Positions 35,486 to 48,613 of a DNA stretch of 64,000 nucleotides are shown here, piece by piece. The position numbers were made by a program, and so were the translations under genes. The notes beneath the pieces were generated by a model. That model searched no databases, had not been told where the DNA came from, and worked only from the letters and a program-made list of their open reading frames with translations. Origin of the DNA: Arthrobacter globiformis (GTDB taxonomy: Bacteria > Actinomycetota > Actinomycetes > Actinomycetales > Micrococcaceae). Position 1 is the stretch's first letter. Each line of letters starts with the position of its first letter. The stretch lies in the NCBI RefSeq assembly GCF_030818015.1, contig NZ_JAUSZX010000001.1:2790001-2854000 (forward strand), read 5' to 3'.

Positions 35486-36382
35486 TCAGAGGGTGGGGGC
35501 GCTGAACGTGTCACACTGGTTGATGTCGCCGGTCTTGTAGCCCTGGTAGAACCACTTCTGCCGCTGCGCGCTGGACCCGTGCGTCCAGCCCTCGGGGTTG
35601 ACGCGGCCCGTGGCGGCTTTCTGGATCCGGTCGTCGCCGACGGCGGAGGCAGCAGACAGCGCGTCGTTCAGGTCCTGCTGCTTGAGCGGCTCAAGGAAGG
35701 GCTTGCCGGTCTTCGGGTCCTTCTGCGTGGTGGCATACCGAGTCCAGAGCCCGGCGTAGCAATCGGCCTGAAGTTCCACCCTGACGGCGCCGGAATCCGC
35801 GCCCTGCGGATCCTGCTGCGCCTTGTCCAGATCTCCGAGGATGTTCTGAATGTGGTGGCCGAACTCATGTGCCACCACGTATTCCTGGGCCAGCGGGCCA
35901 CCTGAGGAGCCGAAACGGGTCACGAGGTCCTGGAAGAACCCGGGATCGAAGTAGGCGGTGGTGTCTGGCGGGCAGTAGAACGGGCCCACCTCGGACGTGG
36001 CCGTGCCGCAGCCGGTGCGGGTGGCGCCCTCGAACAGCACAGCCTTCGGCCGCGGGTACTTCACGTTGTAGTCAGCGAGATAGGCCGGCCAGAACACGTT
36101 AAGGCTGTTGACCGTCCCGGCAATCCGGCAGTCGAGGTCCCTGTCGGCGTCGGAACCCAGCTTGCACTGGGTGAGAGGCGTTCCCGTGCTCTGGGCGGGC
36201 TGTTCCCCGCCGGTGCCCAGGAGTCCGCCAAGCAACTGCGGATTGATGCCGAACAGGGCCGCAAGGAGCAGGACGACACCGCCCCCGATGCCTCCGCCGA
36301 TCTTCGTGCCGCGGCCGACTCCACCGCCACGCCGGTCTTCCACCTGGGATGGGTCCAGCTCGACCCCGTCATTGAAGCTCAT
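35486..36382 (-). CDS. Neutral zinc metallopeptidase family protein (YpfJ-like), membrane anchored
   Basis: Protein of 298 residues with a short cytoplasmic N-terminus, one hydrophobic helix (GGGIGGGVVLLLAALFGINPQLLGGLLG, about 30-58) and an extracytoplasmic metallopeptidase domain carrying HEFGHHIQ, the HEXXH zinc site. Later blocks such as ELQADCYAGLWTRYA and the terminal WTHGSSAQRQKWFYQGYKTGDINQCDTF are characteristic of the YpfJ family. The substrate is not known. Start ATG 36382; the open frame beyond it overlaps the divergent ligase gene. Confidence 0.92.
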   Translation of the reverse strand: MSFNDGVELDPSQVEDRRGGGVGRGTKIGGGIGGGVVLLLAALFGINPQLLGGLLGTGGEQPAQSTGTPLTQCKLGSDADRDLDCRIAGTVNSLNVFWPAYLADYNVKYPRPKAVLFEGATRTGCGTATSEVGPFYCPPDTTAYFDPGFFQDLVTRFGSSGGPLAQEYVVAHEFGHHIQNILGDLDKAQQDPQGADSGAVRVELQADCYAGLWTRYATTQKDPKTGKPFLEPLKQQDLNDALSAASAVGDDRIQKAATGRVNPEGWTHGSSAQRQKWFYQGYKTGDINQCDTFSAPTL

Positions 36383-39147: not shown

Positions 39148-40695
39148 CTACAGGGTTGCCGGGTCCGGGAACAGCTGCTGCCGGAGGTCCTTCTTGCGGA
39201 TCTTCCCACTGGCCGTTCGCGGCATCTCGTCGACGAACACCACCGCCTTGGGGATCTTGTAGCGCGCGAGCCGGCCGTCGAGGTGTGCCCGGACCTGCTG
39301 TTCGGTCAGGGTCGCACCTTCGCGGACCACCACAACGGCCCGTGGCACTTCACCCCACTTGTCGTCCGGAACACCGATCACCGCGACGCTCCCCACCGCG
39401 TCGATCTCGGCGATGGCCTGCTCCACCTCGGCCGGGTAGATGTTCTCGCCGCCGGAAATGATCATGTCCTTGAGCCGGTCGGAAACGAAGACGAACCCGT
39501 CCTGGTCCTGGTAGCCCATGTCGCCGGACTTGAACCAGCCGCCGTCGGAGTAGGACCCGGCGGTGGCGTCCGGCCGGTTCCAGTATTCGCGGATGACGTT
39601 GGGGCCCTTGATCTGGATTTCACCCACGGCGCCCTGCTGGACCGGGCCGCCGGCGGGGTCGGCGATCCTCACGTCGGTGAAGAAGTGCGGCAGCCCGGAG
39701 GAGCCGGCCTTGTCCCGGGACCGGGAAGCGGGCAGGGTGGTTGCCCCCGGGGCCGTTTCCGTCATGCCGTAGCCGTTCGAGAAACGCAGGCCCCGGGCTT
39801 CGTAGGCTTCCAGGACCCGCAGGGGGACGGCGGATCCGCCGCAGGTGAGCTTGTTCAGCGAGCTGATGTCCGACGTCGGCCATTCCGGATGTTCGCAGAG
39901 CATCTGGTAGGTGGTGGGCACCCCGCTGATGGTGGTCACGCGGTGGCGTTCGATGAGCTGCAGCGTCCGCTGCGGATCGAACCTGGGCTCGAGGATCACC
40001 GTGCCGCCCTTGAGCAGGGTGGGCAGGACCCCCATGTCCAGCGACGCCACATGGAACATCGGGGAGATCATCAGAGCCACGTCGGCGAAAGAGAAGTCGA
40101 AATCGGTGATGACGTTGATGCAGTTCCAGGTGATGTTCCCATGCGTGAGCAGGGCGCCCTTGGGGTTGCCGGTGGTTCCGGAGGTGTAGAGGATCATGGC
40201 GCCGTCGTCCAGGGTGACCGGTTCGTCCACGGGCTCGGCGCTGCCCGATGCCACGACGTCCTCATAGTCCTCGGCAGCTGCATCGGCGCCAGCAGCTGCA
40301 GCGTCGCCGACTGCGAGGCGCGTCAGCGCTGTCCCCACGGCAGCCGCACGGGCCACGGTACCCAGGTCCGCGGCGTAGACCAAAGCGGCGGCGGAGCAGT
40401 CGTCCAGCTGGAACCTGATTTCCGGCGGTGCGAGCCGCGTATTGAGGGGAACAAAGATCGCGCCCAGCTGGCCGCAGGCGAAGAGCGTCTCCAGGAAGGC
40501 GGGGTGGTTTTCCCCGAGATAGGCCACCCTGTGGCCCCTGGCCACGCCGCGGTGCCGCAGGGCGTTGGCCAGCCGGCAGCTGCGGTCAGCGAACTGTTCA
40601 TAGCTGAGTTTCCGGTCCCCGGCGATGAGCGCCGTCTTGTCCCCGGATTTCGGGCGGCGCCGTTGCAGCCACGAGCCGATGCCAAAATTTTCCAT
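39148..40695 (-). CDS. couL: p-Hydroxycinnamoyl-CoA synthetase-like acyl-CoA ligase
   Basis: Adenylate-forming CoA ligase of 515 residues with MILYTSGTTGNPKGALLTHGN, NGYGMTETAPG, GWFKSGDMGYQDQDGFVFVSDRLKDMIISGGENIYPAEVE and the catalytic Lys in MPRTASGKIRKKDLR. It is the distal gene of a six-gene minus-strand operon whose composition matches the cou genes of Rhodococcus jostii, where CouL activates p-coumarate and ferulate. The substrate is inferred from this gene context, not from specificity residues. Confidence 0.8.
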   Translation of the reverse strand: MENFGIGSWLQRRRPKSGDKTALIAGDRKLSYEQFADRSCRLANALRHRGVARGHRVAYLGENHPAFLETLFACGQLGAIFVPLNTRLAPPEIRFQLDDCSAAALVYAADLGTVARAAAVGTALTRLAVGDAAAAGADAAAEDYEDVVASGSAEPVDEPVTLDDGAMILYTSGTTGNPKGALLTHGNITWNCINVITDFDFSFADVALMISPMFHVASLDMGVLPTLLKGGTVILEPRFDPQRTLQLIERHRVTTISGVPTTYQMLCEHPEWPTSDISSLNKLTCGGSAVPLRVLEAYEARGLRFSNGYGMTETAPGATTLPASRSRDKAGSSGLPHFFTDVRIADPAGGPVQQGAVGEIQIKGPNVIREYWNRPDATAGSYSDGGWFKSGDMGYQDQDGFVFVSDRLKDMIISGGENIYPAEVEQAIAEIDAVGSVAVIGVPDDKWGEVPRAVVVVREGATLTEQQVRAHLDGRLARYKIPKAVVFVDEMPRTASGKIRKKDLRQQLFPDPATL

Positions 40696-40737: not shown

Positions 40738-42093
40738 TCAGAGCCGTGAGGACTCCAAATCGTTGTTCTTGGGTTCCCTGGTAAGCAGGATGAAGACGAT
40801 GGACACCACGGACATTCCGGCCAGGTACAGGGCCACGGAGCCGGTGTTCTGGCCCGAGTCCTTGAAGATCTGCGCCACGATGCCGGGCGTGAAGCCGGCG
40901 CCCAGGAGCGTCGCGAGCTGGTAGCCCAGGGAGGCGCCGGTGTAGCGGGAGGTGGTGGCGAACTGCTCGGAGACGAACGCCGCAATGGGGCCGAAGAGGG
41001 TGGAGTGGATCATCAGCCCTACGGTGAAGGCCACGAAGATGAGGAAGATGTTGTTGGAGGACAGCAGCTGGAACATCGGCAAGAGGTACAGGATGAAGAG
41101 CCCCAGCCCGCCGATCATCACCGGACGGCGGCCCAGCCGGTCCGAGAGCCTGCCGCCCAGGACCACGAAGGCGATGGAGATGAGGGAGGCGGCGGCGAAG
41201 GCGTACAGAACGCCCTGCCGCTCGGCGCCCTTGGAGACCGCGAAGGTGACCGAGAACGTCGCCATCACCACCTGCAGGGCAAACCCGGCGGCTCCGGCGA
41301 GCATGGTGAAGATCAGTGTCCGGGGGCGGCGCAGGACCTGTACCAGCGGAAAGCGCGGGGCCGTGGTGCCTGTCGCGGCGGAGTCCTGGCTCTTTGCCAG
41401 CGCTTCCTGCTCGATGGCGGCCTTAAAGATGGGGCTCTCGGAGACCTTGAGCCGGACGAACATCCCGACGATCAACAGGACGAAGGAGAGCAGGAACGGC
41501 ACCCGCCAGCCCCAGGAGAGGAACTGCTCGTTGGGCAGGGCAGCGAAGGCGCCCATGATGAGGGTGCCCAGTACTGCACCTGAGGGTGCGCCCGCGTTGA
41601 CGAAGGATGCCGCAAAGCCGCGCCGTCCGGACTCGGAATGCTCCAGTGCCATCAGGGCCGCTCCGCCCCATTCGCCGCCCACGGCAATGCCTTGGAATAC
41701 GCGCAGCAGGACGAGGAGGACGGCGCCCCACGGGCCTGCCACCGAGGCATCGGGGATAACGCCGATCAGCGTGGAGGCCACGCCCATGACTGCCATGGAA
41801 ACGATCAGCATTCCCTTGCGGCCCACCCTGTCGCCGAAGTGGCCGAAGATGATGCCGCCGAGGGGCCGGGCCACATAGCCGGCGGCGAAGGTGCCGTAGG
41901 CGGCCACAACGCCCACCCAGTCGTCGAGCCCGGAGAAGAAGACTTTCGGGAAGACCACTGCGGCGGCGGTGGCGTAGAGCAGGAAGTCGTAGTACTCGAT
42001 GGTGCTGCCCAGGTAGCTGGAGGCGATGACGGTGCGGGCTTCCCTGCGCCTGGCGGTCACATCCATGGTCTGAAGCTGCGAAGTTTGGGACAT
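40738..42093 (-). CDS. couT: MFS transporter, metabolite:H+ symporter family (putative hydroxycinnamate importer)
   Basis: Membrane protein of 451 residues with 12 predicted hydrophobic segments and the MHS signatures SSYLGSTIEYYDFLLYATAAAVVFPK at the N-terminus, GHFGDRVGRKGML between helices 2 and 3, and GGEWGGAALMALEHS. MHS transporters carry organic acids such as shikimate, citrate or aromatic acids. Location inside the CoA-dependent catabolic operon suggests uptake of the same aromatic acid that the ligase activates (CouT role). Confidence 0.82.
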   Translation of the reverse strand: MSQTSQLQTMDVTARRREARTVIASSYLGSTIEYYDFLLYATAAAVVFPKVFFSGLDDWVGVVAAYGTFAAGYVARPLGGIIFGHFGDRVGRKGMLIVSMAVMGVASTLIGVIPDASVAGPWGAVLLVLLRVFQGIAVGGEWGGAALMALEHSESGRRGFAASFVNAGAPSGAVLGTLIMGAFAALPNEQFLSWGWRVPFLLSFVLLIVGMFVRLKVSESPIFKAAIEQEALAKSQDSAATGTTAPRFPLVQVLRRPRTLIFTMLAGAAGFALQVVMATFSVTFAVSKGAERQGVLYAFAAASLISIAFVVLGGRLSDRLGRRPVMIGGLGLFILYLLPMFQLLSSNNIFLIFVAFTVGLMIHSTLFGPIAAFVSEQFATTSRYTGASLGYQLATLLGAGFTPGIVAQIFKDSGQNTGSVALYLAGMSVVSIVFILLTREPKNNDLESSRL

Positions 42094-42138: not shown

Positions 42139-42594
42139 CTACTTATAGAAGCGGGCGAGGAATTCGGCCACGACGGCGGGGCGTTCCTGGCCTTCGATTT
42201 CGATGGTGTTGGAGACCTTGATCTGGGCGCCGCCCTTGACCTCGGTGACCTCGGTGATGGTGGCCTGCATCCGGATCCGTGAGCCCACCTTGACCGGGGA
42301 GGTGAAGCGGACCTTGTCCAGACCGTAGTTGACCTTCGTAGTGACGCCGTCGACGTCGAACAGCTCTCCCCAGAACGGGATGATGAGCGAGAGCGTGAGG
42401 AAGCCGTGCGCGATCGGGGCGCCGAACGGGCCGTCCTTGGCGCGCTCGGGGTCCACGTGGATCCACTGGTCGTCGCCCGTAGCGTCGGCGAATTTGTTGA
42501 TCTGTTCCTGGGTGATTTCGCGGTATTCCGTGACGCCAAGGTCGGTGCCGGCGAGGGTGAGCAGTTTGTCGAAGTCGACGACGAGATTGGGCAT
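42139..42594 (-). CDS. couM: MaoC-family enoyl-CoA hydratase
   Basis: Hot-dog fold (R)-specific hydratase of 151 residues. The hydratase-2 catalytic block is clear: FADATGDDQWIHVDPERAKDGPFGAPIAHGFLTLSL, including the catalytic Asp and His. In the cou pathway it would add water to the double bond of p-hydroxycinnamoyl-CoA. It is followed by about 100 bases without a gene before the acyl-CoA dehydrogenase. Confidence 0.85.
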   Translation of the reverse strand: MPNLVVDFDKLLTLAGTDLGVTEYREITQEQINKFADATGDDQWIHVDPERAKDGPFGAPIAHGFLTLSLIIPFWGELFDVDGVTTKVNYGLDKVRFTSPVKVGSRIRMQATITEVTEVKGGAQIKVSNTIEIEGQERPAVVAEFLARFYK

Positions 42595-42700: not shown

Positions 42701-43972
42701 TTAGCGGGTGAAGGCGCTTTCGCCGGTGAGGGCCCGGCCCACGATGAGCGCGTTGATTTCGTGCGTGCCCTCGTAGGAGTAGACGGCCTCGGCGTCAGCA
42801 TGGAAGCGAGCGACGTCCGCTTCGAGCGTGATGCCGTTGCCGCCCACCACTTCGCGGGCCAGCGCGACGGTATCGCGCATGAACAGGCTGGTCTGCATCT
42901 TGGCCAGGGCTGAGTCCTGGTCGCGGTAGATGCCCTTGGCCTGCTGTTCGGTCAGCCGGACCACCAGGGACAGGCTGGCCGTGACGTTGCCGAGTATGCG
43001 GGCGAGCTTTTCCTGGACCAGCTGGAAGGAGCCGACCGGGCGGCCGAACTGGTTGCGTCCGGTGACGTACCGGAGGGCCGCTTCGAATGCCCCGGCCTGG
43101 ATGCCGGTGGCAATCCAGGCCACATCTGAGCGCATGGCCCGCAGCATCGCCGCGACGTCCCTGAAGGAGTTCACGTTGTGTAGCCGCATGGACTCCGGAA
43201 CACGGACGCCTTCCAGCGTGATGTGGGCGTTCTGCATCATCCGCAATGACGTCTTGCCACGGATCTTCTCCAGCGTCACGCCGTCCGCCTGCCGGTCAAC
43301 CAGGAAGGCCTTGACCTGCCCGTCGGCCACGTCACGGGCGAACACCGCAAGGACGTCCGCCGTCGCAGCGCCCCCGATCCAGCGCTTGGCGCCGTCCAGG
43401 ACCCAGGAATCCCTCTCGCGGCGTGCCGTTGTTGAGAGCCCGCCGGCAATGTCAGAGCCGGATTCAGGTTCGGTGAGCGAGAAGACGCCCTTGAGTGAAA
43501 AATCAATCACCTTGGGCATCCACTCAGCCTGCTGCTCCGCCGAGGCACCCACCCGGATGGCTGTACGGAACAGTCCGGCCTGCGCGGTGTACCAGGTGGC
43601 CAGCGAGGCATCGGTGCGGCCGAGTTCAAAAATCCGGAAGCCCTGGTAGATCCCGCGAGCGGGGATTCGTTCTGCATCCCGGGCACCCGTGAGCCCGGCG
43701 GGTTCCATCAGGTCTAGGTCGATCAGCGGGCGGGCCAGCTGTTCCGGGAACTCGCCGCGCTCCCAGTAGTCGGCCAGCAGCGGCTTGGCCTCTCGGTCCA
43801 GGAAGTCCCGGAGCCGGCAGAGGACGTGGCGCTCCTCGACTGTGAGGAGGGCTTCGGCGTCGTACCAGTCCGCCAAGGCGTAAAGCCGGTCCTGCGCTGC
43901 AGTGCCGCCGTCTTGCGCCATGCCCTCCTGGAGTCGGGCACCCACGGCGGGTTCCGCCGTCGTCGTGTCCAT
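42701..43972 (-). CDS. Acyl-CoA dehydrogenase, glutaryl-CoA dehydrogenase-like
   Basis: FAD flavoprotein of 423 residues. FAD and substrate motifs are FSLTEPESGSDIAGG and WVLDGAKRWIGG; the catalytic base is the Glu in VYSYEGTHEINALIVGRALTG, the arrangement of the glutaryl-CoA dehydrogenase branch. In this operon it could desaturate a saturated phenylpropanoyl-CoA (for example a dihydro-hydroxycinnamate) so that it enters the hydratase step, widening the substrate range. Its ATG is 1 base from the end of the amidohydrolase gene, so it is co-translated. The lack of RHxxTGxR-type decarboxylation evidence leaves the substrate open. Confidence 0.88.
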   Translation of the reverse strand: MDTTTAEPAVGARLQEGMAQDGGTAAQDRLYALADWYDAEALLTVEERHVLCRLRDFLDREAKPLLADYWERGEFPEQLARPLIDLDLMEPAGLTGARDAERIPARGIYQGFRIFELGRTDASLATWYTAQAGLFRTAIRVGASAEQQAEWMPKVIDFSLKGVFSLTEPESGSDIAGGLSTTARRERDSWVLDGAKRWIGGAATADVLAVFARDVADGQVKAFLVDRQADGVTLEKIRGKTSLRMMQNAHITLEGVRVPESMRLHNVNSFRDVAAMLRAMRSDVAWIATGIQAGAFEAALRYVTGRNQFGRPVGSFQLVQEKLARILGNVTASLSLVVRLTEQQAKGIYRDQDSALAKMQTSLFMRDTVALAREVVGGNGITLEADVARFHADAEAVYSYEGTHEINALIVGRALTGESAFTR

Positions 43973-43973
43973 G

Positions 43974-44867
43974 TCATGCCCCCAGGCCGAGCAGGCGGAC
44001 GGCGTTGTGCTTGAGGATCTTCGGCCGCACCTCGTCCTTCAGCGGCAGGTCCCCGAAGGCACCCAGCCACTTCTGCGGCGTGATGAGCGGGAAGTCGGTG
44101 CCGAAGAGCACCTTGTCCTGCAGGTAGGAGCTGGACGCCTTAACCAGGGACTCCGGGAAGTACTTGGGCGACCAGCCGGAGAGGTCGATGAACACGTTGG
44201 CCTTGTGCGTGGCAATGGAGTTGGCCTCGTCCTGCCACGGCACCGAGGGGTGGGCCATGATGATCTGCAGCTCCGGGAAATCCGCGGCCACCGCGTCCAG
44301 GAGCAGCGGGTTCGAGTAGGCCAGCTTGATGCCGTACCCGCCGGGCATCCCCGCGCCCATGCCGTTCTGGCCGGTGTGGAAAATGGCGGGCAGGCCCAGT
44401 TCCTGGAGGGTTTCCCAGAGCGGGTAGAAGCGTTCGTTGGAGGGGTCGAAGCCCTGCAGGCTGGGGTGGAACTTGAATCCCCGGGCGCCCAGTTCCACGG
44501 CCTGGTGCTTGGCGCCGGCGATGGCGTCCTCGCCGGTGCGGGGATCGACACTGCCGAACGGGATCAGGACGTCGTTGTTCCGCGCGGCACCGGCGATGAG
44601 TTCTGGGATGCTGTTGGGCTCGTGCTTGAGCTGGGTCCGGGCGTCCACGGTGAAGACGACGGCGGCCATGTTCAGTTCCCGGTAGACCTCGGCGATGCGG
44701 TCCAGGGACGGCGTGCGGTCCTCGGCCTTGAAGTACTTGGCAGAAGCCTCGGTCAGGGCCTCAGGCAAGGAGCCGTGGCCGCAGCTGTCCACTTCGAGGT
44801 GGACGTGCATGTCGATCGCGGCGATCTTTCCGGCATCGATGCCCAGTTCATAGCGGGTGGTGGTCAT
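43974..44867 (-). CDS. couO: Amidohydrolase (CouO-like beta-ketoacyl-CoA cleavage enzyme)
   Basis: TIM-barrel amidohydrolase-2 protein of 297 residues. Metal-site motifs are IDMHVHLE at the N-terminus, RGFKFHPSLQG, IFHTGQNG, IIMAHPSVPW and the terminal FGTDFPLITPQKW. Family members include decarboxylases such as ACMSD; in the cou pathway CouO hydrolytically cleaves the beta-keto thioester to release the hydroxybenzoate. ATG 44867 was chosen because it begins MTTTRYELGIDAGKI and the upstream frame overlaps the SDR gene. Confidence 0.85.
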   Translation of the reverse strand: MTTTRYELGIDAGKIAAIDMHVHLEVDSCGHGSLPEALTEASAKYFKAEDRTPSLDRIAEVYRELNMAAVVFTVDARTQLKHEPNSIPELIAGAARNNDVLIPFGSVDPRTGEDAIAGAKHQAVELGARGFKFHPSLQGFDPSNERFYPLWETLQELGLPAIFHTGQNGMGAGMPGGYGIKLAYSNPLLLDAVAADFPELQIIMAHPSVPWQDEANSIATHKANVFIDLSGWSPKYFPESLVKASSSYLQDKVLFGTDFPLITPQKWLGAFGDLPLKDEVRPKILKHNAVRLLGLGA

Positions 44868-44868
44868 A

Positions 44869-45828
44869 TCAGGGCACCTGCGCCGGCTCGGGCTGTACCG
44901 GCCGGGATTCGGGCTGCAGCTCTGCCGGCAGCGGGAGGAACTCCTCGCCGTAGCCCTGCAGCGTGTCTTGGGTGAAGAGGGTGCCGGCGTTCGCGTGCAG
45001 GGCCTCATAGCTCCAGCCGCCGTCGCGGTATTCGGTGGTGGCCGCAGTCGGGTGTGTCCAGACCTGCAGGCGGTCCCCGCCGGCGCCGATGGCCTGGCCG
45101 GTGATGCCAGCGGCTTCATCGGAGGCGAGGAAGGCAATCAGTCCGGCGACGTCGTCGGACGTGCCGAAGCCGAGGTCGTGACGGAAGAAGGACGGCATGG
45201 CCTCGCCGCGTTCGTCCGCCTCGACAGCCTTCTGGAAGTAGGGGACCGTCTTGGTCATGGCGGTGGCGGCCACCGGGATGACGGCGTTGGCGGTGACGCC
45301 GGCCTTCTTCATCTCCAGGGCCCAGGTGCGGACCATGCCAACGATGCCGGCTTTCGCGGCCGCGTAGTTGGTCTGGCCGAAGTTGCCCCGCTGGCCGGTG
45401 GGGGAGCCGATGGTGATGATGCGGCCCTGAACGTTGTTGGCCTTGAAGTAGGCGAAGGCTTCGCGGACACAGGTAAAGGTGCCGCGGAGGTGGACGTTGA
45501 TGACGGCGTCGAAATCCTCGTCCGTCATCTTCAGCAGGCTCTTGTCCCGCAGGATGCCGGCGTTGGTGACCAGGATATCGAGGCGGCCGAATGCATTGAC
45601 CGCCGCCTGGATGAGTTGCTGCGCAACTTCCGTGCTGCCGACCGGAGCGACGACGGCGGCCGCCTTCCCGCCGTCGGCCTCGATGGTCCGGACTGCTTCC
45701 GAGGCGACGTCGGCGTCAACGTCATTGATGACGACGGCAGCGCCCTGGCGGGCGAGTTCGCGGGCGTAGGCCAGGCCCAGACCGCGGCCGCTGCCCGTGA
45801 CGATTGCTACTTTGCCTGACAGGCTCAT
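44869..45828 (-). CDS. couN: SDR-family 3-hydroxyacyl-CoA dehydrogenase
   Basis: Short-chain dehydrogenase of 319 residues. Cofactor motif VTGSGRGLGLAYARELARQGAAVVIND, then NAGILRDKSLLKM, Ser in ITIGSPTGQRGNFGQTNY and the YAAAK catalytic pair. The sequence resembles the (3R)-hydroxyacyl-CoA dehydrogenase domain of type-2 multifunctional enzymes, which suits oxidation of the product of the MaoC hydratase. First gene of the operon, with AAAGGAG before ATG 45828, divergent from the MarR gene. Confidence 0.87.
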   Translation of the reverse strand: MSLSGKVAIVTGSGRGLGLAYARELARQGAAVVINDVDADVASEAVRTIEADGGKAAAVVAPVGSTEVAQQLIQAAVNAFGRLDILVTNAGILRDKSLLKMTDEDFDAVINVHLRGTFTCVREAFAYFKANNVQGRIITIGSPTGQRGNFGQTNYAAAKAGIVGMVRTWALEMKKAGVTANAVIPVAATAMTKTVPYFQKAVEADERGEAMPSFFRHDLGFGTSDDVAGLIAFLASDEAAGITGQAIGAGGDRLQVWTHPTAATTEYRDGGWSYEALHANAGTLFTQDTLQGYGEEFLPLPAELQPESRPVQPEPAQVP

Positions 45829-45886: not shown

Positions 45887-45921
45887 TATCCATGAAAATC
45901 TGGATAGTTGAAAAAGTCAAT
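45887..45921. promoter_or_regulatory. Candidate CouR (MarR) operator region for the cou operon and couR
   Basis: Two adjacent inverted repeats lie in the divergent promoter region: TATCCA-N8-TGGATA (45887-45906) and GTTGA-AAAAG-TCAAT (45907-45921, TTGA/TCAA half sites). The second, with its flanks, reads TAGTTGAA-N3-GTCAA-TGATT and recurs almost unchanged before the secreted esterase gene at 47938. Confidence 0.65.
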
Positions 45922-45949
45922 GATTATTTTTGATCACTATTGGAGGGTC

Positions 45950-46429
45950 ATGACTGAGACCGGGACGGGGCAGCTTGCCCCCGCGGCGGACAAGCTGGTT
46001 CCTGCCTCCATCAGCAGCGATGCCGGCTTCCTCCTGGCCAAGCTGCATGCCGCGGGGTCGGTGGTTAATAACCGGGCGCTGGAGGAGTTCGATCTGAAGG
46101 AGCGCTCGTATTCAGTGCTGGCCCTGGCCGCGAGCGGCCTTGAACCGAGCCAGCGCGAGATGGCTGATTTCCTCAGCCTGGACCCGAGCCAGATCGTCTC
46201 CCTGGTGGATGACCTGGAGAAGCGGGAACTGGTGCTGAGGGCACCCGGCCGGCAGGACCGGCGGGCCAAGATCGTCACGGCCACCGCAGAGGGGCAGCGG
46301 CTGTTTACGGAAGCCAGCAAGGCGACCCGCCGGGCGGAGTCGGAGGCGCTGGACCGGCTGAACCGGGACGAAGTAGCGGAGCTGAAACGCCTGCTCCGCA
46401 AGGCGCTGTGGCCCGGCTTGGACGGGTAG
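45950..46429 (+). CDS. couR: MarR family transcriptional regulator (CouR-like)
   Basis: Winged-helix regulator of 159 residues. The MarR core is visible: LKERSYSVLALAASGLEPSQREMADFLSLDPSQIVSLVDDLEKRELVLRAPGRQDRRAKIVTATAEGQRLF, with the wing motif GRQDRRAK. It is transcribed away from the catabolic operon; CouR of Rhodococcus represses such an operon and is released by p-hydroxycinnamoyl-CoA. ATG 45950 has GGAGG close by; ATG 45920 and TTG 45908 are alternatives but fall in the operator. Confidence 0.87.
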   Translation: MTETGTGQLAPAADKLVPASISSDAGFLLAKLHAAGSVVNNRALEEFDLKERSYSVLALAASGLEPSQREMADFLSLDPSQIVSLVDDLEKRELVLRAPGRQDRRAKIVTATAEGQRLFTEASKATRRAESEALDRLNRDEVAELKRLLRKALWPGLDG

Positions 46430-46452
46430 CGGAGCAGGCGTGTCGCTGCGGC

Positions 46453-47880
46453 CTAGCGGGTGGGCGTCCAGACCCGGTCGTTGATAAATTCGTCCGGACG
46501 GAACTCGACGTAGTTGGCGCCGTCCAGGTCCAGTGATGTTGCGGCGTGCTGCAGGTTGGCGGTTGTGGCAATGGAGCCCCAGTGACCGGTTTGGAGCCGC
46601 TGGTCCATGGCCTCGATGGCGGCGATATTCTCCGCCACCGTGAAGTTGCAGTGTCCTGCCCGGTTGACGAACGCCTGGCGGAACAGGGAGTTCCTGCCCG
46701 CCTGGCGAACTGTTTCTGCGTACTCCTCCTGATATTCGACGGGGGCCAGGAGGTCCACCGTGGTGTGGGTGGCCAGCAGCGGCACCTGGAGCTCGCCGGT
46801 GGGGGTGGAGGTCCGCAGCATCCACCGGAGGCCCTGATTGCTGGGCTCGATGTCGGCGTTGGCCGTGAGCGTGGAAAGGTCGCGGTTCAGGTTCAGCCCG
46901 GCCGTGGCGTACATGTGCCCCACCAGCTGGCGCTGGGCTGAGGACTGCAGGACTTTTGCGTAGTCGACGCCGGTGGTCCAGCCGCTGTCACCGCCGGCGG
47001 CGTTGACAATGGTGTGGCGCCGTTCGATTACCGTGGGGAGCGTCTCGAGGACCAGCTTCGCCTGGGCCGCCGCCAAGGCCTCCGGGTTGTTCGCGTCAAC
47101 GCCGTCGAGTTCGGTCGGAGTGTTCAGCAGCGCGGCCACCAGAGCCAGGCGAGCGCGGCCATCGGCGGATGCGGTGGCCTGCTGCAGGGCTGCCTTCAGC
47201 GCGGCGATGGTCTCGGCGGACTCTGCCGGTGTGGTGAAGCCGGCAAGTCGGATGTCCTGCCCGGGAAGGAGCAGTTCCGCTGCCGCGTAGGCAGCATCGA
47301 GCTGGTAGTTGTTCAGGGAAACGCCGCCGCCCACCAGGCCGCAGGTGCTGACGGCGCCGTCGATGCCGGAGTCCGGGATTTCCGCCATCATGCTCGTCAC
47401 GAGGCCTCCCATGGACCGTCCGACGGCGATAACCCGATTTGCCTTCCCAAAGCGTTGCTCGAAGGCGGCCAGGGTGTCGAGCTGATCCTGGGCTGCGGTT
47501 CCGAGCGCCCAGCCGGCGGTGGCGTAGGAAGAGGAGGCGACGGCGTAGCCACGGGCCACAAGCGCGCTGGCGGTGGGTGTGAATCCTGTGTCCCAGGCGG
47601 GGTTCGCCGGTCCCGGGCGGAAGCCGTGGGCAAAGAGGACCAGCTTCCCGTTCCAGTTCGCCGGCACCTCGGCACGCCAGGCCGCTCCGTCGGCGAGGGT
47701 GCCGGTGGCGGCCGTCGGCGGTGCTGCTGATGCTGTTGTTGGCGCGGGAGCCGGCGTCGAAGCATCTGCGGAGGGCTGGGCGGCGAGGGCCGCTGGGGAC
47801 GCCGCGGCCGTGACGAGCAGGGCGGCAAGGGCCGATGTGGAAGCGATGGTGCGGCAGCTTTGGCGCAGATTACGAGTCAT
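46453..47880 (-). CDS. Secreted alpha/beta-hydrolase, putative esterase
   Basis: Exported protein of 475 residues. A Sec signal peptide (basic start MTRNLRQSCR, hydrophobic core, cleavage near AALAAQP at 33-35) is followed by a low-complexity Ala/Pro/Thr linker and an alpha/beta-hydrolase domain with oxyanion region FAHGF and nucleophile elbow GRSMGG (Ser156). It lies convergent to couR and its promoter carries the same palindrome as the cou operon. Release of ester-linked hydroxycinnamates outside the cell is a reasonable hypothesis; substrate is not shown by sequence. Confidence 0.85.
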   Translation of the reverse strand: MTRNLRQSCRTIASTSALAALLVTAAASPAALAAQPSADASTPAPAPTTASAAPPTAATGTLADGAAWRAEVPANWNGKLVLFAHGFRPGPANPAWDTGFTPTASALVARGYAVASSSYATAGWALGTAAQDQLDTLAAFEQRFGKANRVIAVGRSMGGLVTSMMAEIPDSGIDGAVSTCGLVGGGVSLNNYQLDAAYAAAELLLPGQDIRLAGFTTPAESAETIAALKAALQQATASADGRARLALVAALLNTPTELDGVDANNPEALAAAQAKLVLETLPTVIERRHTIVNAAGGDSGWTTGVDYAKVLQSSAQRQLVGHMYATAGLNLNRDLSTLTANADIEPSNQGLRWMLRTSTPTGELQVPLLATHTTVDLLAPVEYQEEYAETVRQAGRNSLFRQAFVNRAGHCNFTVAENIAAIEAMDQRLQTGHWGSIATTANLQHAATSLDLDGANYVEFRPDEFINDRVWTPTR

Positions 47881-47918
47881 TCGGGCAACCTCAGTCAGTC
47901 GAAGAAAGTTGAAGGGGA

Positions 47919-47954
47919 CAACTAATGGTTATTTAACTAGTTGAATTTGTCAAC
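47919..47954 (-). promoter_or_regulatory. Candidate MarR operator of the secreted esterase
   Basis: GTTGA-ATTTG-TCAAC (47940-47954) is a perfect 5-bp inverted repeat. With its flanks (TAGTTGAA-N3-GTCAA-CGATT) it matches the cou/couR motif at 45905-45925 at 17 of about 21 positions. A further repeat CAACTA-N13-TAGTTG (47919-47924/47938-47943) overlaps it. It lies 60-75 bases upstream of the esterase ATG, over the likely promoter. Confidence 0.65.
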
Positions 47955-48613
47955 GATTTCCCTGCATTGCCTGACTGGCCTCTTGGGGGAGGTGATGCGC
48001 TATCCTCGCCGGCGGTCCGAACTGCGATTATTGCTGCGTGCGGGCGATTTCCCGGTTCGGTGCGGACGTGGACTTCTTGGACTTCAAAGCCTGCGGCGAC
48101 GAGGTGCTGACTCATGGCGTCCTCGGACCAGTAGTACGCGCTCGTGACCGCGTGCGGGAATGATTCCCCGGCCGGCCCATTGAAGAAGCCGAGAAGAATG
48201 GTGCCCCCTGGGCCGATGCAACGGGCAAATTCGCCAAGAACGAGAGGCACTTCGGCCGGCTCGAAATGGATCAACGAATACCAGGCGAGGATGCCGCCCA
48301 AATGACCATCCGGGACCTCCAATGCGCGGAGTGTGGCAACTCGAAAGCGTATGGCCGGAAACCGCCGTCGAGCTTTTTCGATGAAGACAGGAACCAGGTC
48401 GATGCCCTCAGCGTCCACGCCGTGGTCGGCGAGAAATGCGGTCCAGTGCCCTGGACCGCAGCCTGCATCGATGGCCGGACCACGAAGCGACTGTGCCCAG
48501 CGCACCATAAGCCGCTGATCCTGCTCATGGGCTCTGTCAGTCGATCCGAACAGCGCTGTGTATTCTGCCGCACGATCAGCGTAGGCGTCCTGAACCCGTT
48601 TGTCCGTCACCAT
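47933..48613 (-). CDS. Class I SAM-dependent methyltransferase
   Basis: Rossmann-fold methyltransferase of 226 residues with SAM motif I AIDAGCGPGHWTAFLA, motif II acidic residue in GIDLVPVFI, and LLGEFARCIGPGGTILLGFF-type post-motif. Substrate is unknown. The last 20 bases run into the esterase promoter/operator, and the C-terminal tail is low complexity. Divergent from the S33 peptidase gene, about 98 bases away. Confidence 0.85.
   Translation of the reverse strand: MVTDKRVQDAYADRAAEYTALFGSTDRAHEQDQRLMVRWAQSLRGPAIDAGCGPGHWTAFLADHGVDAEGIDLVPVFIEKARRRFPAIRFRVATLRALEVPDGHLGGILAWYSLIHFEPAEVPLVLGEFARCIGPGGTILLGFFNGPAGESFPHAVTSAYYWSEDAMSQHLVAAGFEVQEVHVRTEPGNRPHAAIIAVRTAGEDSASPPPRGQSGNAGKSLTNSTS

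Follow-up and report, generated by a model that had tools for sequence, protein, structure and literature searches.

The window analysed here is a 64,000-nucleotide stretch of the Arthrobacter globiformis genome. It contains a palindromic site in the promoter region of a cou-type (hydroxycinnamate breakdown) operon and a second copy before the gene of a putatively exported alpha/beta-hydrolase, referred to below as the esterase. A MarR-family regulator gene lies between the two sites. It is divergent to a run of genes for an SDR (short-chain dehydrogenase/reductase), an amidohydrolase, an acyl-coenzyme A (CoA) dehydrogenase, a MaoC hydratase, an MFS (major facilitator superfamily) symporter and a CoA ligase. 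The linked cou genes (ligase, hydratase, SDR, amidohydrolase and transporter) are present, each assigned by family.

The palindromic sites and their regulator

The motif TAGTTGAA-N3-GTCAA-YGATT occurs at positions 45905-45925 (TAGTTGAAAAAGTCAATGATT) and 47938-47958 (TAGTTGAATTTGTCAACGATT), where a preliminary description of this DNA had placed it. The full motif has two forward matches in the 5,085,937-base genome, both in the window, and the reversed control has none, so the motif is not frequent elsewhere. The same description recognised a TTGA/TCAA palindrome, which holds, and split it as TTGAA-N3-GTCAA, which hides the true arms and the 5-bp spacer. The working unit is TTGA-N5-TCAA (45908-45920 and 47941-47953). 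In the available text of the study of Rhodococcus jostii RHA1, the CouR box is given as cATTGA..TCAATg with a 5-bp spacer, lying over the -35 region (PMC4737184).

The core RTTGA-N5-TCAAY is found at 25 distinct genomic sites (22 and 3 from two site lists, summed by hand), which corresponds to about 0.01 sites per 2-kb stretch; two cores in 2 kb around a MarR gene are therefore unexpected. A scoring matrix trained on couR promoters from 25 further genomes (of the 27 loci L041-L067, the 25 with the exact core) gives the two window sites 35.3 and 35.4 bits, and the next best site in the 64 kb scores 1.9. A third bare core at 35682 is without the flanks. With flanks taken from other couR promoters (ATNRTTGAN5TCAAYNAT), the first site has no mismatch and the second has one. 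At most one mismatch is found at three genomic places, the two window sites and C1:2653039, which has no cou gene within its 3 kb. A pattern relaxed to three mismatches gave at least 318 forward matches against at least 38 in the control and was set aside.

The box is similarly specific in related genomes. A stringent form of it occurs at 83 sites in 75 of 150 same-genus genomes, with one site in the reversed control (column sums by hand). Among the 75 of these 83 sites that were listed, 69 lie within 250 bp of a couR gene. The other six comprise three cou-type operons apart from couR (G049, G018 and G109), one site before an NMT1-type ABC binding-protein gene (G077) and two sites without explanation (G021 and G031). 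Among the 30 best CouR loci, that of the window included, 28 have the exact core next to couR. Both the sites and their specificity are direct observations. The G077 site (L165:5424) scores 30.7 bits, and the NMT1-type protein encoded behind it is 63% identical to its counterpart in a transporter-esterase gene run of G049.

The window MarR protein is a winged-helix protein whose best solved relatives are the RHA1 CouR structures 3fm5/5cyv (E 8e-20). It keeps DPSQ (D65/S67/Q68) in the reading helix as well as R38, it has lysine in place of R36, and lysine or arginine is retained at the DNA- and ligand-contact positions. The available text on CouR reports K36 for the protein of Arthrobacter FB24 (PMC4737184). 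The box is present in the divergent couN/couR promoter, where its overlap with the -35 region was judged from sequence. By the features that can be tested here the protein is a CouR-type regulator, a kinship that is observed directly. The amidohydrolase is presumably of CouO type, a label that rests on family and position.

The second site contains TTGACA on the minus strand (47953-47948), which is a plausible candidate for the -35 element of the esterase. The candidate -10 element (Table 1) was not reported by a promoter consensus scan. The block that contains it is conserved among aligned esterase promoters. Downstream of the box stands a weaker box-like element, its left part AGTTGT identical in ten aligned promoters and its right arm variable. 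This element could belong to the start site or be a second CouR site of low strength. Control of a methyltransferase open reading frame (47933-48613, minus strand) by the box was ruled out, the box being at the 3' end of that frame. This frame extends into the esterase operator (47933-47960), and its counterpart in a relative (L080) ends about 16 codons earlier.

Table 1. Positions of the genes and sites discussed, numbered within the window
Feature	Position	Strand	Remark
AMP-binding CoA ligase	39148..40695	-	would make the CoA thioester sensed by CouR
MFS metabolite/H+ symporter	40738..42093	-	uptake
MaoC-like hydratase	42139..42594	-	
Acyl-CoA dehydrogenase	42701..43972	-	
Amidohydrolase-2	43974..44855	-	CouO type by family and position
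SDR oxidoreductase	44869..45828	-	couN position
CouR box 1	~45904-45925, core 45908-45920	.	divergent promoter couN-type/couR; ~30 bp to couR ATG, ~80 bp to SDR ATG
MarR-family regulator, CouR type	45950..46429	+	159 aa
Alpha/beta-hydrolase (esterase)	46453..47880	-	475 aa; Sec-type signal peptide by eye
Weaker box-like element TTGTCCCCTTCAA	47909..47921	-	32 bp (~three helical turns) downstream of box 2
Candidate -10 AACCAT	47925..47930	-	17 nt past TTGACA
CouR box 2	~47937-47958, core 47941-47953	.	~60 bp before esterase ATG

The genome has a second cou-like cluster (G000:C1:2172492-2181000, L068) with enzymes 65-77% identical to those of the window and a CouR-type regulator at 46%. The genes that come after it are a PadR-like one, one for a VanA_C/Rieske oxygenase and a reductase-like one, the first and the last labelled by eye. 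The two clusters are perhaps divided by substrate, methoxylated or not. Both contain an acyl-CoA dehydrogenase gene (42701-43972 in the window and L068:12057-13208), and these enzymes might open a route to saturated (dihydro) hydroxycinnamates. A possible CouR box, ATTGACAGTCTCAAT (C1:2181418), before a CocE-like (by eye) hydrolase gene near the second cluster is negative with the full matrix and is not claimed.

The esterase box in relatives

A search of named genomes for the esterase gave 17 loci, 12 of them actinobacterial. In seven of these 12 (L021-L026 and L032) no more than about 70 bp separate the exact core from the start of the esterase, a recurrence that is likewise observed directly. 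In all but L021 of the seven no cou-operon gene was found, L032 having only a 33% MFS relative, and the 123,130 bases of these six loci contain exactly six cores. L023 and L024 have a promoter block in common and are therefore not independent. Each of the seven genomes has a CouR gene beside a couN-type SDR gene with the same core between them. Strong support for the earlier proposal, one MarR/CouR regulon for hydrolase and cou operon alike, comes from the uniqueness of the motif, from the published CouR box and from these relatives, since the box also precedes an esterase gene that does not adjoin a cou operon. In the aligned esterase promoters (the window, L021-L026, L032, G129 and G138, chosen by exact core) the spacer is variable (0.86 bits) and the upstream DNA unrelated (0.34 bits), and conservation extends through a block that reaches the start region.

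The esterase was found in seven of 150 genus genomes (E 1e-20) and in 16 of 245 family genomes (E 1e-100), the genome of the window being in both draws, which makes 22 genomes in total. The exact core is directly upstream of the esterase in 11 of the 22, namely the window genome, G129, G138, G082 and seven of genus g8. In core-bearing genomes the esterase gene is often solitary, apart from the cou operon. All seven g8 esterases have the core 68-69 bp upstream, and four of these are loci L022, L023, L024 and L026. Four further genomes show other forms of the link. They are G098, which has a degenerate box, G049 and G062, where a box separates a CouR gene from divergently oriented ABC-transporter genes with the esterase behind them, and a Sinomonas genome with a changed box. 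The link is therefore not universal and arose or disappeared within the family.

In Sinomonas the esterase gene follows a CouR-like gene, and the reading helix of the encoded regulator has LPSR in place of the DPSQ found elsewhere. The operator between the two genes is AGTTCA-N5-TGAACT, replacing the TTGA-N5-TCAA box. It looks like helix and operator have changed as a pair, in a single case that may be a natural example of such a paired change in a MarR protein. No further changed operators were found in 15 Sinomonas-group genomes, two of which carry the esterase, namely the known one and a distant homologue.

The esterase and the neighbourhoods of its homologues

Residues S156, D376, H410, C180 and C411 are invariant in 63 aligned homologues of the esterase. 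The structural model has a mean pLDDT (predicted local distance difference test) of 89.8 and shows an alpha/beta-hydrolase fold with a lid insertion, a helical segment at 186-358 between two strands. VIA-align ranked many hydrolases alike, with known cinnamoyl and feruloyl esterases among them. A fold match to Xanthomonas oryzae LipA was tied with many generic hydrolases and was not used. The gene neighbourhoods speak more clearly on the function of the esterase than the fold comparison.

Genes in the fetched loci were called by a simple script (codon-position GC) and by tblastn with proteins of the window and the loci. In five of five sphingomonad loci a full-length homologue (38-40%) is divergent to a fer-type gene run. 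This run encodes a PrpD-like protein (by eye), an aldehyde dehydrogenase, a p-hydroxycinnamoyl-CoA hydratase/lyase (FerB) and an NDP-forming CoA ligase, presumably of FerA type by family and position. The PrpD-like gene stands between the homologue and the other genes of the run. The hydratase/lyase was assigned in L033 with 460 bits against a cut-off of 276 bits and in the other four loci by tblastn. No TTGA-N5-TCAA core was found just before the homologue in the sphingomonad loci. In one of them (L037:1880) a 23-bit TTGA-N5-TCAA box lies in the fer locus, flanked on one side by a Saro_0803-like MarR gene and on the other by a gene that, by eye, is TonB-receptor-like. In Nocardioides insulae (L030) no more than 10 kb separates the esterase and two 33% paralogues from a ligase and an amidohydrolase of cou type.

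Several Arthrobacter-type and Nocardioides loci, and one from a sphingomonad, carry a gene for a small DUF3237 protein that adjoins the esterase gene or is at most a few kb away from it (L022, L026, L028, L030, L035, L170-L173 and L175). Judged by eye, this protein begins with a signal-like stretch in three of these loci (L022, L028 and L030). A literature search on DUF3237 gave nothing useful. One kind of cytochrome P450 is encoded near the more distant homologues (L030, L033, L035-L037 and L169).

A putatively exported ester hydrolase under probable CouR control

These data suggest that both sites are probably operators of one CouR-type repressor and that the hydrolase, predicted to be exported, frees hydroxycinnamates in a feed-forward loop. 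Control of the secreted hydrolase by CouR is very likely from the sites and their recurrence, and its substrate is likely a hydroxycinnamoyl ester. Such an activity is predicted only, and is consistent with the invariant catalytic residues, the model and the neighbourhoods. Several relatives keep the switch even where the gene sets are apart, so the esterase probably frees acids from plant material.

Several observations weigh against this interpretation. The ten aligned promoters were selected by exact core, so their identical arms are no independent support. The esterase is rare in the genus (the seven of 150 genomes given above), and it matches no specific family in Pfam or NCBIfam. The box of G098 has a TCCA arm and scores 17.4 bits. 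The seven remaining esterases of the 22 genomes, all from one clade (genus g32) and 58-62% identical, showed no core when the 400 bp before each gene were examined; in one of these cases (L031/L178) there is none in 21 kb, and that genome still has a CouR gene with a box at its own SDR gene. Three Nocardioides loci are without the box, and in two of those genomes a search at E 1e-10 gave no CouR. Neither cou nor fer neighbours were seen in L031 and L028-L029. In G174 a 37-38% homologue lies beside a P450 gene and other hydrolase genes with no cou or fer gene in 12 kb, and the wider family need therefore not be specific for hydroxycinnamates.

A chance match can be dismissed for practical purposes: nothing was found in its support, the expected number in 2 kb is about 0.01, the counts in the genome and in relatives reject it, and a box at the same place in another genus (g8) refutes it. 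It is very improbable that the conserved block acts just as a strong core promoter and binds no CouR. The box does contain TTGACA/T and the -10 region is conserved too. In g8, whose loci were not chosen for the core, the second arm TCAA is kept in seven of seven promoters while spacer and flanks differ, which counts against this explanation because a -35 element needs no such arm, and such boxes scarcely occur outside CouR loci. The esterase box could also be read, mainly or additionally, by the CouR-type regulator of the second cluster (C1:2172525-2172962), the esterase then answering to a cou cluster linked to vanillate demethylase. Two regulators could share the site because this cluster exists, and four genomes with boxed esterases (G151, G152, G153 and G155) have, at E 1e-10, no CouR proteins other than ones of 46-50% identity. 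The box of the second cluster itself scores 23.8 bits with one arm base changed. The idea is nevertheless doubtful, since valine replaces D65 in the second regulator while the CouR proteins of these four genomes keep aspartate, and since box 2 scores as it does with a matrix trained on the first type and is 1.5 kb from the first couR gene.

It is also conceivable, and in our view unlikely, that CouR controls the esterase with hydroxycinnamoyl-CoA as the signal only, the substrate being some other aromatic ester (dihydro-cinnamoyl, chlorogenate-like, suberin or P450-processed). The acyl-CoA dehydrogenase of the operon could serve saturated side chains, P450 genes occur near distant homologues in Nocardioides insulae, four sphingomonad loci and G174, and the DUF3237 partner is recurrent. 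According to PMC12753220, a different actinomycete from soil handles piperic acid with enzymes that resemble the hydroxycinnamate-degrading ones. Against this, FerB, the CoA ligase and the aldehyde dehydrogenase in all five sphingomonad loci and the cou-type ligase and amidohydrolase in L030 point to C6-C3 acids.

For the preferred reading, that of one repressor and a hydroxycinnamate-releasing esterase, family and context suggest binding, ligand, export and substrate as follows. Without substrate, a CouR dimer would sit on TTGA-N5-TCAA spanning the -35 regions of the couN-type operon, couR and the esterase. Free hydroxycinnamate would enter via the MFS symporter and be converted by the ligase to its CoA thioester, which would displace CouR, as has been shown for RHA1 CouR, and the three promoters would open together. 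The exported alpha/beta-hydrolase would then cut coumaroyl or feruloyl esters outside the cell. The freed acids would be imported and shortened by the operon, and traces of free acid would in this way call out the enzyme that makes more.

The description of the CouR regulon concerned free hydroxycinnamates, their uptake and their breakdown. If confirmed, an exported ester hydrolase would widen it to the release of these acids from esters or plant polymers, the signal being a CoA thioester inside the cell. An esterase family unnamed in Pfam and NCBIfam would also gain a function, and new feruloyl-esterase candidates would become available. More tentatively, and with somewhat more doubt than belief, the homologues found in Arthrobacter, Nocardioides and sphingomonads may belong to one secreted family of hydroxycinnamoyl-ester hydrolases that has gone unrecognised. 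Its members would have been wired to hydroxycinnamoyl-CoA catabolism repeatedly, through CouR boxes in trans, a CouR-controlled ABC-transporter operon, fer/cou linkage and the private Sinomonas CouR copy, whose helix and operator seem to have changed as a pair. No paper joining CouR, Arthrobacter, esterase and hydroxycinnamic acids was found among the open-access papers that were searched and listed.

The top Foldseek matches of the esterase by E-value are MHETase (6qg9) and the tannase-family feruloyl esterases AoFaeB (3wmt) and FoFaeC (8bhh), with which it shares a helical lid between serine and acid and the HC pair (H410-C411). The TM-scores are only 0.32-0.41, and no tannase Pfam model matched at E 0.001. 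The family rule, in the source text available, is a cysteine just before the catalytic serine and another just after the catalytic histidine, joined by a disulfide. The esterase has R155-S156 (GRSMGG) in place of Cys-Ser, with the invariant C180 as candidate partner, and having the cysteine after histidine but none before serine it is not filed as a tannase-family member. The sphingomonad fer-type clusters (CoA ligase, FerB, aldehyde dehydrogenase and MarR) resemble the present system in having an esterase homologue in the same loci, and differ in the other ligase type and the CoA hydratase/lyase route. Two MarR proteins of L037 resemble Saro_0803, below the model cut-off.

The window system is a new branch of the known CouR regulon with an uncharacterised esterase family. 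In contrast to RHA1, the MFS gene lies within the SDR-first run and an acyl-CoA dehydrogenase is present. The RHA1 regulon is not known to include that enzyme. For RHA1, boxes are reported at couN, couR, couT and couH (PMC4737184); in the window, by contrast, a box stands before the gene of a hydrolase with a putative signal peptide. By the same text the two systems are alike in a MarR repressor of the same branch, in TTGA-N5-TCAA over the -35 region, in a single box for the divergent couN and couR, in the CoA ligase and in the amidohydrolase CouO step (PMC4737184).

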